The position numbers and the translations under genes were made by a program. A DNA stretch of 64,000 nucleotides from Beroe forskalii (lineage: Eukaryota; Ctenophora; Nuda; Beroida; Beroidae), in the NCBI GenBank assembly GCA_011033025.1, contig WFMF01000404.1, positions 100,258 through 164,257 on the forward strand, given 5' to 3'. A model generated the notes under the pieces. That model was not told the DNA's origin. It made no database searches and saw only the letters and a program-made list of their open reading frames with translations. Shown here one piece after another: positions 15,878 to 60,700 of the stretch; the stretch's first letter is position 1; each line of letters starts with the position of its first letter.

Positions 15878-18800
15878 CTCCCGGACTGCGTCTCAACAGG
15901 TACCGTCTACATTCGTCGTATATCCAGATTGCCAGGGAGAATGGGAGGGCTGGAAGCCACCACCAGAACCTGAAGTTTTCACGGTACAAATAAAGAAATA
16001 ACACAAATTGGATCATGATCCAATCCAAATATTCAATGAAAGAATGAAGTGGATATTTTCTGAACAACAGTAATTCCAGGCAGTCGCTTTACTATCATAT
16101 GCCCCATGATAGCCATCAGCCATTTCCAGAAAAAATGCACACGGATCTTTGAATTACCTCAGAGGGTAGACTCGAAGTGCTTTGTCAAGTCCTGGTGTGT
16201 AGCAGAGGAAGGCTGCGAGAGCAGTCTCAAATAGGATACCCGTGTTCAGAACCCAGTTGTTCATTCCTGAGATTTACAATAAGACATCATCCTCACAGGG
16301 AAAAAAGGTTCAACTGTTAAGTGGTGTGGGCTTTTCGATGTGAACAAGTTATATTATAATCTATATATCTGATAGATTAATGACTTTGAATTTACAAATG
16401 CTTCTTTTCAAATCTGGGTTGATATAAATATCTTAGCATCTATAATTTTTGACCAGTACTATGATAATACAATTACGTAAATACACATGAGTATAAGCCT
16501 ACCTATAATGGTGTTGCTCAAGTAACCGAACTACAGATCAAATTAGCCGTTTACTTTTTATAATGTCTGTTTTATTTGTGCAGAAGTATTAGTTTAGTGT
16601 TTTAGAACCACAGCACTTATAATAGGTCCTGTACTAGTGCTTAGTATCCTAAACCTGTGCTAGCAGATTGGTATATGGTCGGTCATGCCTCAACTCGCCA
16701 TGGGTTAACAAGTTAGTCCATCAAACAATTACCTTGTTGGAAGACGGATAGTTTCCTTGTTTTACAAATGATGACGTCAGCCCACTGCACGATGACTATG
16801 CTTACAAAGAACGCCGAGTGACACGTGTACTCCAGCACCTTTCTGTCAGAGTACGACTGAAACGATTGCGGAGTGAGGTACTAATTTAGGAAACTGATAA
16901 CAACCTGCAGAATTCACTGATTGATGGTTATATAAGTTTTAGAAGCTACCACCTAATTTATAGCTGCCATCTTAGCATCTTTTCATACTCAGCACTTGAA
17001 AGAAATGAAGAGGTTCCACTGTACCCATTGCTGGCCGTAGGAGTCCTCCAAGGTATCGATGCTCCTATCGTCCCAGTATTTCCTCAGTCCGATCAGAAGA
17101 CTTGGTCTGAAACCGTTCTCAGCCATGATAACGAAATATGTAAAGAATCCAGCTGTAGCTTGTATCATTCCAATCTGGCCGTAGGATAGAGAGATCAACC
17201 TGAAGGTGAATTCCTTCAGTTAATTAAAATCATAAGACAAACTATAATAGTATAATATACACATTGACCCTCTGCTCCCAAATATAAATCGTCAAATTTT
17301 CAGTCCCTAAAATCCCTACGAATTCACTTTCCGTACCTCTCATTGACGAGCCTATCTTTGAAGGGGTCTCTGGGTAGCCGTGTCATGATGTCTGACTCAG
17401 GTTTCTCATAGGCCAGTGAGATGGCAGGCCACAAATCAGTTCCCAGATCGATGAAGAGAATGCATACCGTTCCTGTGCAGGGGTTTTTATTCATACGAAT
17501 AGTGAACAGTGACGTTTCATTGTTATATCATGACGTTTCATTGTTATTTCATGGTTTGAAAACTTTATTTTATATCCAAGGGATAATATCCCTTTTTGAT
17601 TTGAAAGAAGTTTGACTCGATGCATATTGTAAAAACATTTCAATCCTGCGTTGATAAACTCTAGAATTTTGATGAGCAATCCATACCCAAAGGCAGAGGG
17701 ATGGACAGCACAATGAAGAATAGGAAGGGAGAGATCTCCGGGATATTGGACGTCAGAGTGTAAGCGATGGACTTCTTCAAGTTGTCGAATATCAATCGAC
17801 CCTCCTCCACGCCGGTTACAATGGAAGCAAAGTTGTCATCCAGGAGGATCATGTCAGCAGCCTCCTTGGAAACGTCAGAGCCAGCAATACCCATAGCAAT
17901 ACCTGGGGAGGAACCAAAGTTACCATAGCAATACCTGGGGAGGAACCAAAGTAACCATCGTAGTAACCATAGACACCCTAATAAGTTAACATCAGTAGCC
18001 ATCAGTAACCATAGTAACTATAATATGTCATCAGGAATGACAGCAATACACCAGAAAACAGAAGCCCAAACTTAATGATAAAAATAGCGATGCAGCTACT
18101 AAATTACTAAATTATAAGCGCTTGTCGATTCAAAACGCTAAAATGTCAGCAGATTGAAAGAAGTATAAAATTTTGATACTTCAATAAGGCCGATTATTAT
18201 TTTGCCCCTCAACCCGTCTTATCTCTTCTCTCAACATGTTACTTTATTACCGATATCTGCTTTCTTGAGAGCTGGTGAATCGTTGACACCATCGCCAGTC
18301 ACAGCTACAATCTGACCAGCCCTTTGGAAGGCCTCCACAATAATCAGCTTCTGTTGGGGAGACGTCCGGGCGAACACAATCTCTCTGAAAGGGAGGATAA
18401 ATTGGTGAATGATTCGAATTAGAAAAGTTAGCGAAAATGAGAGGGGTTCACGAAATAAAGTTAATTATGTTTGCTAATTTTCCATTTTTGGATGAATGAA
18501 TTTATTTCCTGCTTATTTTCCATGTCCTCTAGATAATTTTAGACTTTATTACCTTGAATTCTTCGGTTCGTGTCATTGGAGTACTGGCTGTACAGCTGTT
18601 GCGATTATATAGAAGCAAAACCTTAGAAAATGAAAAATAAGAATTCTATGCTTACATACGTACCTTATTCTCTTATTGAAAAAAGTCAGGAATTTTAAAA
18701 CTACGACAATGCATGAGATTTGTGGTTATACCGTCTAATGGATGGTCTTACTCGTGTTCCTTAAGGAGTTTGTCCAGGTCTTCCTTAGTCATGTCTTTCA

Positions 18801-57740: not shown

Positions 57741-60700
57741 TCAATCAGGTATCTATTTACCACTGGTACCTGCGACACAGAAGACCCCTCCCCTGGTACC
57801 TGCAACACAGAAGACCCCTCCCCTGGTACCTGCAACACAGAAGACCCCTCCCCTGGTACCTGCGACACAGAAGACCCCTCCCCTGGTACCTGCGACACAG
57901 AAGACCCCTCCCCTGGTACCTGCGACACAGAAGACCCCTCCCCTGGTACCTGCGACACAGAAGACCCCTCCCCTGGTACCTGCGACACAGAAGACCCCTC
58001 CCCTGGTACCTGCGACACAGAAGACCCCTCCCCAGGTACCTGCGACACACAAGACCCCTCCCCTGGTACCTGCGACACAGAAGACCCTCCCCTGGTACCG
58101 CGACACAGAAGACCCCTCCCCTGGTACCTGCGACACAGAAGACCCCTCCCCTGGTACCTGCGACACAGAAGACCCCTCCCCTGGTACCTGCGACACAGAA
58201 GACCCCTCCCCTGGTACCTGCGACACAGAAGACCCCTGCCCTGGTACCTGCGACACAGAAGACCCCTCCCCTGGTACCTGCCACACAGAAGACCGCTCCC
58301 CTGGTACCTGCGACACAGAAGACCGCTCCCCGCTCCAGTAGACTCCACACCAACTTCCCATGCTCCACTATCCGGTGCTGCACGTATATCTTCCTGTCCT
58401 GGTCGCGACTAAAAGCCGTTATAACGCGCAGGTTGGCTGCCCCAGGGGACTGTATCTCCACCACAGGACCACCATTCTCCTGCTGTGAGGGATGCGAGGG
58501 ATCGGAGGGATCGGAGGGAGGGGATGGCTCCCACTCATCCCTGAAGAAGTAGTCCCGGTGTTCTCCTCGACACCCGAAGAAGAGGAGTAGAGGAGAGGTG
58601 TCAGCACCACGGGATTGGATGAGGGACCGGAAGGGGGCACATCCCGTGCCAGGTCCAACCTGTAACAGGTTCTATGGTGATCATGTCTACCTTTCTATCT
58701 ATATTTATATTTGAGATTTAAATTATTTGTTGATATTTTAACTTTTAAAGACTGGAGTTACCGAATATTTACACATTTCTTGAAATCAATGACACCGTTC
58801 CTAGTTCCTACCATTATGATGGGTCTGTCAGCTGGGAAGTGGAAAGAACCTCTTTCAATGTAAAGTCTGACGGGAGAGCCTGGAGTGAGGTTTGCCAGCC
58901 AGTTCGAACACAGCCCCACCCTCTCTTTCTTCATCACTGTTTTATACCTGATCAAGCAATATTTCAAAATATCAATTGATCAATAAACCAATAAACTCTT
59001 AGCTCATTGTAGAAATCATAATACTGTAGTAATGATGATAATATTTTGGTGATGTGGTTCAATAGTACATTGAAGTAATAAATGATCGGAGAATACTTGC
59101 ATAAACCTTTATCTAAGATTTAAAGTTTTAAATGAGCATTAATTGGGTGCAATGTCACCCATTTATAAACTATTACCTGACGACTCCAACGCATATTTGC
59201 AGCTTATCACGTGCGACTGACTGGGCGGATGCGATGGAGAATCCCCGGGGTCTAATAGGAGGAATGATGTCGAGGAGATAGGAAGTGTCCAGGTTGTTGC
59301 GGACTGAGTGGAAGTCCCCCAGAACCTCCAGGACAGTTCGTCGTGGTCTGGACACGTACGAGTAGAGTTCTTCCCTGCCCAACAGCTGAGGGGTTTGGTG
59401 TATCGTGAAAAGGATGATCAGGGAACAGGGATGACAAAATGGGGGGTGAAGATGGAAAGCAAGAATAGGTCTTAGGGGACCTATAATTTTGGTTATGATA
59501 CTGGTGGTATTTCATTAAAAGTTCATTAATAAAGTGAAGGGATAAACTGAGGGAGGTCCAAAATACACATGTTAATGTAACCCGCAGCGAAGTGAACTCC
59601 TCGAACTTCTCCTTCTCCAGCTCGTCAGTAGCGAAGTGGGTGCAGATCTCAAAGAACCTCCTGGCAGGAACTGCTGCGATGTCAAGGTGCGAAGTGAGGA
59701 GGGTCCTAACTGACAGGGTCTGTGGTATGGTGGCAGGAGGGGGACCCGTGAACTGAACGGTATCGTCTGGGGAGAGACGCAGCAACCGACATGCTTCCTC
59801 GACATCCTCCGAGGTGTTCCTATCGGGGATAAGATTAGCAAGGTGATCAATGTATTTCCAGTTACAGGATATTGATGCTTTGATGGCGTGATAGTTATGA
59901 TAAATTTTAGTGCATGAGCTTGGTATAAGACAGGTTCAATTAAAATCTATTCGGAATCTATTGCCACTAAACAGCTTCTACTCTAGTACTCAACAAGGCA
60001 CTTACTCAGGGTAGATCCACACCACATCCCCGGGTTGGTACTCCAAGTCACTCCCTGCAATGTCGAGAGTAACCAGTCTCACATCCTGGAAATGCTCTTC
60101 ACTCGTCACTCTCTTACTCCTCTCCAACACAGCCGTGAAGGGCCGTGTTTTGTCGTAAGCCACGGGAGTGCTGTGGTTGTTCTGCTTAACGTTCGAATGG
60201 TTTTCTTCGCTCCTTGATGTGGAATGGTTTAGCTCCCTGTTCACGAGGGAAGCTGTGTTTGTTGCCGTGTTAGGGTTTGAGTGGTTGTTCTGCGGACAAC
60301 CATCGGATCTGGTCTCATTGCTGAGGTCTCCAGACTCCGTGTTAGCATGTGGTGTGATGGTGAAGGAGTACTTGGGAGGTAGAGGACGGTAAGTGGGTAT
60401 GTAGGTCACATGATCTAGAGAAGACATCACTGAGAAGAGATCAGCGATCCAGGTGTAGCACTGGTAGTCGGATCCTTCCGGGTGCTGCTCGTCACACAGT
60501 CCCAGCGTGTGGATAGCCTGCCCGCCTGTCAATGTCAGGTGGATACTGTTAAATTGTTTAGTAAGTTAGTATAGTGTTTTAATGTTGCTTACAGAAGGAG
60601 AGAATATCATAGCTTTTTACTTTTGTAAGTTATTGCGTTCATTGATTAGTTCTTCTTGACAAGAATAAATTCTACTGTAAAGCTTGAATAAACCAACTTC

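Follow-up and report, generated by a model that had tools for sequence, protein, structure and literature searches.

Tandem arrays abutting 3′ splice sites in genes of the ctenophore Beroe forskalii

The window analysed here is a stretch of 64,000 nucleotides from the ctenophore Beroe forskalii (contig WFMF01000404.1, positions 100,258 to 164,257), taken from a genome of 216 Mb in 1134 contigs. It carries exons of BBS9, NDOR1 and a Na,K-ATPase gene, all on the minus strand, and tandem arrays lie on or close to several of their exon boundaries. The initial annotation of this stretch had described tandem repeats that nucleate at exon boundaries; that description narrows to arrays that abut 3′ splice sites. 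The excess of array edges at acceptors is statistically supported in an independent, though small, sample of the same genome. The most likely cause, to which we give a probability of about 0.4, is that duplications copying the 3′ splice signals are preferentially kept or grown.

Arrays at acceptors in the window

The exons were located in different ways. BBS9 exons 1–8 were positioned using an ortholog (P0001) and NDOR1 exons 1–8 using a ctenophore-like NDOR1 protein (P0121), while nine Na,K-ATPase exons were positioned by reading. The latter can be joined without a change of frame, and their translation aligns over its whole length with solved Na,K-ATPases (residues 2–426), the join at 18845 being the only one in a length-variable stretch of the alignment. 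Among the 120 matches listed for the BBS9 query, the best protein was 90% identical, that of Bolinopsis microptera 79%, two further proteins 72 and 69%, and the rest, mostly vertebrate, 39–50%. Together these homology-checked models supply 47 junctions and 22 introns with a median length of 288 nt.

Two acceptors in the window are spanned by arrays and four more are approached to within 5–17 nt. At the Na,K-ATPase acceptor at 17902, where the exon join was checked, a 32-bp unit found by Tandem Repeats Finder (TRF) is present twice (17891–17958). The unit consists of the pyrimidine tract, CAG and the initial 11–12 nt of the exon, and 12 exon nt lie inside the array. As 32 bp is not divisible by three, splicing at the upstream AG of this duplication would shift the frame. 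The second spanned acceptor, that of BBS9 exon 7 (47647), lies in a 67-bp duplication of about 1.5 copies (47617–47734) that takes in 31 exon nt and is absent from the TRF list.

The four arrays that stop short of an acceptor were all reported by TRF. A 19-bp unit, TCTCATTCTAACTCCTGTG, repeated 17 times (18855–19182), ends 9 nt before the Na,K-ATPase acceptor at 18845; on its sense strand TAAC occurs 18 times and AG is absent. An array of 30-bp units (48541–48778; 6.5 copies to 48740 according to TRF) ends 5 nt before the BBS9 exon 6 acceptor (48535), its unit including TAAC and a pyrimidine tract. Two 12-bp arrays lie 17 nt before the BBS9 exon 8 acceptor at 31606 (31624–31736; unit ACTGTTTATAAC, sense strand free of AG) and 12 nt before the exon 2 acceptor at 55404 (55417–55577; unit ATTAGTAACCCC, AG present). 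In addition, a 95-bp unit in 2.3 copies (55902–56117, TRF) takes in the BBS9 start codon, the ATG of which begins at 55915. A 21-bp unit present twice (17510–17553) is 37 nt from the Na,K-ATPase acceptor at 17472, beyond the 30-nt limit that we applied, and was not counted.

All nine of the junction-associated duplications listed in the initial annotation, including two at donors described below, are thus present, and in four arrays the unit includes exon bases as well as splice signal, as it had stated for several. Copy number does run from about 1.5 to many; that the arrays represent successive stages of one process is conjecture.

A duplication finder (ungapped, period 8–250) identified 24 clusters in the window and none in one block-shuffled copy. 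The caveat to what follows is that the pattern itself drew attention to this window. With the edge of the BBS9 intron 3 array taken from TRF, an array lay within 30 nt of, or across, 8 of 44 intron ends, and exon bases were inside four arrays. When arrays were placed at random within their own introns and allowed to reach 0, 15 or 30 nt into exons, 4.3, 4.7 and 4.8 ends were expected (P 0.001, 0.005 and 0.012, respectively). Dropping the arrays on pooled array-free intron sequence gave a mean of 0.8–1.5 ends (P <0.0002, 5000 draws), and when the 16-kb BBS9 intron 7 was left out seven ends were seen for a mean of 1.3–2.2 (P ≤0.0008). For exon overlap alone, the four cases seen compare with 1.6 (P 0.028, 15-nt margin) or 2.4 (P 0.15, 30-nt margin) for placement in the arrays' own introns and with 0.7 (P 0.004) for pooled placement.

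Array edges at acceptors and donors in an independent sample

An independent sample of 213 kb was made up of five 20-kb tiles, at fixed coordinates on long contigs, and 30 protein-kinase loci. Junctions were predicted with a gene finder that overlapped all 23 chosen window exons and placed 44 of their 46 ends exactly, its splice and coding tables having been partly trained on these exons; a first run predicted too many small exons and a stricter version was used. Unselected junctions were retained only if they scored at least 15 both with and without masking of arrays, and all others were discarded. Edges were counted on the intron side, as near (0–30 nt) or far (60–500 nt), excluding junctions inside arrays (three in the window, two outside), and P values are from one-sided binomial tests. 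A set of donor-array loci (L043–L066, described below) was excluded from the acceptor test because these had been picked for their arrays.

The unselected acceptors had five near and nine far edges, or 2.19 versus 0.40 per kb (ratio 5.5, P 0.006), and the unselected donors had 0 near and 12 far. In the window the corresponding counts were 4 and 0 for acceptors and 1 and 4 for donors. Sample and window together gave 9 near and 9 far edges at acceptors (3.15 versus 0.33 per kb, ratio 9.4, P 1.5e-5) compared with 1 and 16 at donors. Arrays near junctions therefore exceed chance in the window and, outside it, at acceptors only, which does not amount to the process at exon boundaries generally that the initial annotation had proposed.

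Across exon-score cut-offs of 12–25, near distances of 15–60 nt and the use of TRF arrays, P for the unselected acceptors ranged from 0.005 to 0.035 and the direction was steady. Paired introns in the tiles had four ends within 30 nt of an array for 0.95–1.67 expected (P 0.0075–0.056), and a looser pairing gave five for 1.2–2.2 (P 0.0065–0.062). Arrays spanned, or came within 30 nt of, eight of the 145 unselected junctions, namely six acceptors and two donors, one of the donors at exactly 30 nt and outside the edge counts. With the window included, 12 of 100 sampled acceptors were either spanned by an array or had an array edge no more than 30 nt away.

As decoy acceptors of similar strength we took non-coding AG sites that were distant from any predicted exon. 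The lowest cut-off used, a score of 6, is approximately the lower quartile of real acceptors, whose median is 7.7. The 1147 decoys scoring above 6 had 10 near and 135 far edges (ratio 0.91), and those above 7, 8 and 9 had 5 and 74, 2 and 27, and 1 and 14, respectively. As the decoys had no excess of edges, a pyrimidine-rich stretch ahead of an AG is not sufficient. Edges were denser in the last 30 nt before real acceptors than deeper in the intron or at decoys, a result sensitive to one tile.

Content and origin of the array units

All 12 acceptor arrays were rich in pyrimidines on the sense strand (mean 0.63). TAAC was more frequent than GTTA in eight of them, less frequent in one and tied in three. 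Counted on the pyrimidine-rich strand, at least two TAAC were found in 7 of the 12 acceptor-proximal arrays versus 12 of 90 others (P 0.0012). No AG was present on the sense strand of five acceptor arrays, one of them 328 nt long. The others contain some AG, and the BBS9 intron 1 array has nine for 4.7 expected. Upstream of 82 array-free acceptors, at 15–50 nt, CTAA was enriched 2.7-fold and was the second-highest 4-mer. From their sequence, the units at acceptors may be branch-point-like.

Tandem triples of short words were counted in the whole genome with the reversed pattern as the control. The hexamer most often seen at acceptors of the sample, TTTCAG (9 of 64), was found as a triple 4780 times versus 1043 for the reversed word, TTAAC 27000 versus 16991, TTGCAG 2509 versus 968 and AGGTRAGT 1310 versus 4387; because long arrays weigh heavily in them, these counts give direction only, and the direction matches that of the edge counts. 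When triples were divided by single occurrences and set against the same quotient for the reversed word, the values were approximately 3.1 for TTTCAG, 2.3 for TTAAC, 1.15 for TTGCAG and 0.4 for AGGTRAGT, with single rates per Mb taken from the sample, in which the octamers occurred only 12 and 15 times. A donor-centred reading was rejected, as tandem AGGTRAGT had no excess over its reversed control. CTAAC triples (39068 versus 13959) were given no weight, as telomere-like CCCTAA repeats among the matches listed confound them. When we grouped the matches listed on two contigs into distinct arrays there were 20 for TTTCAG, 9 for GACTTT and 4 for TTGCAG, too few to rely on, and some of the GACTTT places resemble one dispersed element.

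TRF arrays made up 10.6% of the window and 3–12% of the individual 20-kb tiles. Within 277 kb, 13 of 14 junction arrays had no other match, only 1 of 21 window introns matched elsewhere (over 81 bp) and no introner-type family shared across introns was found. Over this span the arrays are built from local sequence and form no family.

Arrays at donors and shared intron ends

Two arrays in the window, both found by TRF and by reading the sequence, have a tandem unit that holds the 5′ splice site of an exon end. At the NDOR1 exon 7 donor, a 30-bp unit is repeated 19 times with 97% matches (57763–58331). It is made up of the final 23 nt of exon 7 and the donor GTACCAG, and its exon part codes for GAVFCVA and supplies the initial base of the following G codon. 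There are 24 exon nt inside the array, and intron 7 (57728–58307) is almost wholly array. Because the P0121 protein has a GAVFCVA-type segment in one copy only, the remaining copies of the unit are presumably spliced out. At the BBS9 exon 3 donor, a 24-bp unit repeated about 65 times (52405–53943) joins the exon end (..CTCAAAGGG) to GTGAGTG and makes up most of intron 3 (52244–53923). The TRF edge puts 20 exon nt inside this array; the duplication finder alone stops 22 nt into the intron. The ortholog P0001 has one copy of the exon 3 repeat unit (LSKG|ALKGH). These two donor arrays are real, but donors show no excess and arrays of this kind have precedents.

Further donor arrays were taken from the first places, by contig order, with triple AGGTRAGT. 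The 24 loci, many of them overlapping, yielded six readable arrays. In one or both prediction modes, four of these (L043, L052, L057 and L058) start where an exon is predicted to end, which is only weakly above expectation because 6 of 21 AGGTRAGT words in the sample are at predicted exon ends. The junction was identical with and without array masking at L043, which we take to be an M1-aminopeptidase-like gene, and at L057, presumably a WWE-like gene, and it shifted by at least one copy at L052 and L058. At L054 the array is in an intron on the opposite strand. In the unmasked prediction for L052 (1250–2340), an exon includes in-frame 24-bp copies with the weak donors GTGCGT, ATGAGT or GTGCAT, and the repeat becomes intronic from the first GTGAGT. 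If this prediction is right, L052 would be a coding minisatellite that has partly turned intronic. Elsewhere, in a joined tile (L039 and L040, 13990–15182), a 33-bp unit repeated 36 times holds GTACC, TTTTTAAC, a pyrimidine tract and CCAG and resembles a miniature intron.

In-register runs of at least 7 nt were shared by the two ends of 5 of 80 introns, compared with 0.54 expected by re-pairing (P 0.0002). The best were in BBS9 intron 5 (TGTTAAGGTGA) and NDOR1 intron 2 (AGGCGGGCAG). The latter intron (60525–60749, minus strand) has AGGCGGGCAG as a direct repeat at both flanks and apparently uses a GC donor. A shift-tolerant measure, set against a local null, gave 12 versus 5.8, 6 versus 2.9, 2 versus 2.0 and 2 versus 1.6 at scores of 7, 8, 9 and 10. 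The shared ends are consistent with intron gain by duplication but fall short of proof.

Explanations for the acceptor excess

Tandem duplications arise throughout the non-coding DNA of the B. forskalii genome, and we suggest that those including the 3′ end of an intron would be preferentially retained or expanded. The unit at an acceptor would copy the segment with the branch point and pyrimidine tract, at times together with the AG and the first exon bases. The final copy would still serve the same AG, leaving the protein unchanged and the splice signals redundant. At donors, duplications may be equally well tolerated, and units of exon end plus donor would then accumulate in the intron, as in NDOR1, BBS9 and further loci, with no excess over chance. 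Where the arrays lie, what their units contain and that orthologous proteins have a single copy are observations; we infer which splice site is used and that the excess reflects selection for keeping arrays and not a mutation bias of the locality. A wider proposal, that minisatellites of branch-point and pyrimidine-tract sequence are found at a sizeable share of ctenophore 3′ splice sites, arising by recurrent, acceptor-specific amplification and kept for the redundancy that they give the acceptor, is more tentative.

Several points weigh against preferential retention at acceptors. The basis is the DNA of one genome, and five near edges at unselected acceptors is a small sample. Three of the five come from one tile (T469), and without it there were 2 near and 6 far edges (ratio 3.3, P 0.16). 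Only two of the five acceptors were homology-checked: a cathepsin propeptide domain and a kinase domain each continue across the junction. Two of the others are in a secreted-looking gene with no Pfam match and one is upstream of a kinase domain that we take to be RAF-like. The division into acceptors and donors was made post hoc, and the P values are one-sided and uncorrected. For both ends pooled outside the window, the clustering of array edges relative to the intron interior that the initial annotation expected is only suggestive (5 near and 21 far, P 0.09), while for acceptors it was found. In the kinase loci alone, neither of two arrays in paired introns was near a junction. The splice-site scores of 96 array units revealed no general enrichment relative to shuffles, and TTGCAG, likewise an acceptor hexamer, had almost no excess in word counts that long arrays dominate. 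Upstream of array-free acceptors GTTA (18 versus 24) was enriched above TAAC (19 versus 34, mild), which makes TAAC uncertain as a branch-point motif.

A less likely but serious rival is a hotspot of mutation tied to transcription or splicing, with more duplications born at real 3′ splice sites through R-loops or through damage or copying linked to the branch or lariat, and with no selection. It would fit an excess at real acceptors that decoys of similar strength lack, and arrays of about 1.5 to many copies. However, donors in the same transcripts have no excess, and the decoys disfavour slippage driven by composition.

Of similar probability is a second rival, in which duplications arise anywhere in non-coding DNA, those spanning a junction survive because only one copy is used, and the window is a lucky cluster. 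The donor arrays without excess agree with such neutral tolerance, as do the exon-overlapping arrays at only 2 of 145 junctions outside the window and the weaker P values obtained there for pooled ends and without tile T469. Against it stand the acceptor excess, in the independent sample and in the combined data, and the same-intron placement in the window.

Intron birth as in the Rogers model, where a duplicated coding segment with AGGT becomes a spliceable array that itself makes up the intron at donors, is improbable. NDOR1 intron 7 and BBS9 intron 3, the in-register runs at intron ends and the predicted structure of L052 all suit it. However, the shift-tolerant measure of shared ends shrinks when compared with positions of the same locality, and the acceptor arrays without exon bases are left unexplained. 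An origin by slippage within the low-complexity pyrimidine tracts that end introns would suit the pyrimidine-rich acceptor-proximal arrays but is very improbable, as decoy acceptors lacked an excess at every cut-off from 6 to 9.

Other features of the window

A single-exon gene, carboxylesterase-like by eye, lies inside the 16-kb BBS9 intron 7 on the opposite strand (44894–46654, plus strand). Nested intronic genes are described as common in Hormiphora in the accessible part of PMC8527503. No tblastn match to BBS9 residues 588–835 was found within the window, nor were any exons seen there that would encode the N-terminal half of the Na,K-ATPase; for both the gap region is 19447–31454, and truncated genes, very long introns or misassembly are the alternatives. 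Just 3′ of NDOR1 (57000–57240, minus strand) there is what seems, by eye, to be a decayed second copy of its last exon and acceptor. Units of about 0.9 kb that alternate in orientation, and in which open frames recur (NIQHSRNFNASKK..., NPFICTLGTMIDN...), occupy 33000–37310 and resemble an array of repeat elements. At 10736–11851 a near-palindromic 24-bp unit forms a GC-rich array, both strands of which carry long open frames.

Comparison with known systems and significance

The initial annotation's statement that no described system matches was too strong, as minisatellites that carry donors and introns that grow through tandem duplication have both been published. The human 6-16 gene (IFI6/G1P3) is reportedly, by the title of a 1995 paper in Nucleic Acids Research (23:1854), one in which a minisatellite gives multiple splice donors. 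By analogy, several donors could come from each of the arrays at NDOR1 exon 7 and BBS9 exon 3; unlike that single gene, several genes of one animal are involved here and the excess is at acceptors.

The comparisons that follow draw on the accessible portions of the papers cited. Intron gain by tandem duplication is reported for ATP2A1, for fission-yeast genes with 24-bp AGGT repeats and for potato RdRp (PMC4974935). As is presumed for the window, an AGGT-bearing exon segment is copied in tandem and spliced out with the protein unchanged. However, most acceptor arrays here have no exon bases and intron birth is putative. In human segmental duplications, internal tandem repeats at exon–intron boundaries are variable and are retained or spliced out (PMC2812944). 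They share their location with the arrays described here, but that set consists of recent paralogs and its accessible text states no acceptor bias, whereas an acceptor excess was found in B. forskalii. The CeRep25B minisatellite of Caenorhabditis elegans is over-represented near alternative splicing regions (PMC4039745) and is likewise minisatellite sequence near splicing decisions. It is one named repeat, whereas here every array is made from its own local sequence. In the open-licence literature we found no description of arrays abutting acceptors, nor of such a pattern in ctenophores.

Tandem repeats in introns are commonly regarded as incidental noise. If they do gather specifically at real acceptors and repeat branch-point-like motifs, the arrays would let the duplication, maintenance and selection of splice signals be studied as a natural experiment, and would provide a route to longer introns or to exon ends turning intronic. 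They would also partly account for the high tandem-repeat load of ctenophore genomes such as that of Hormiphora, put at 13% in the accessible text of PMC8527503.

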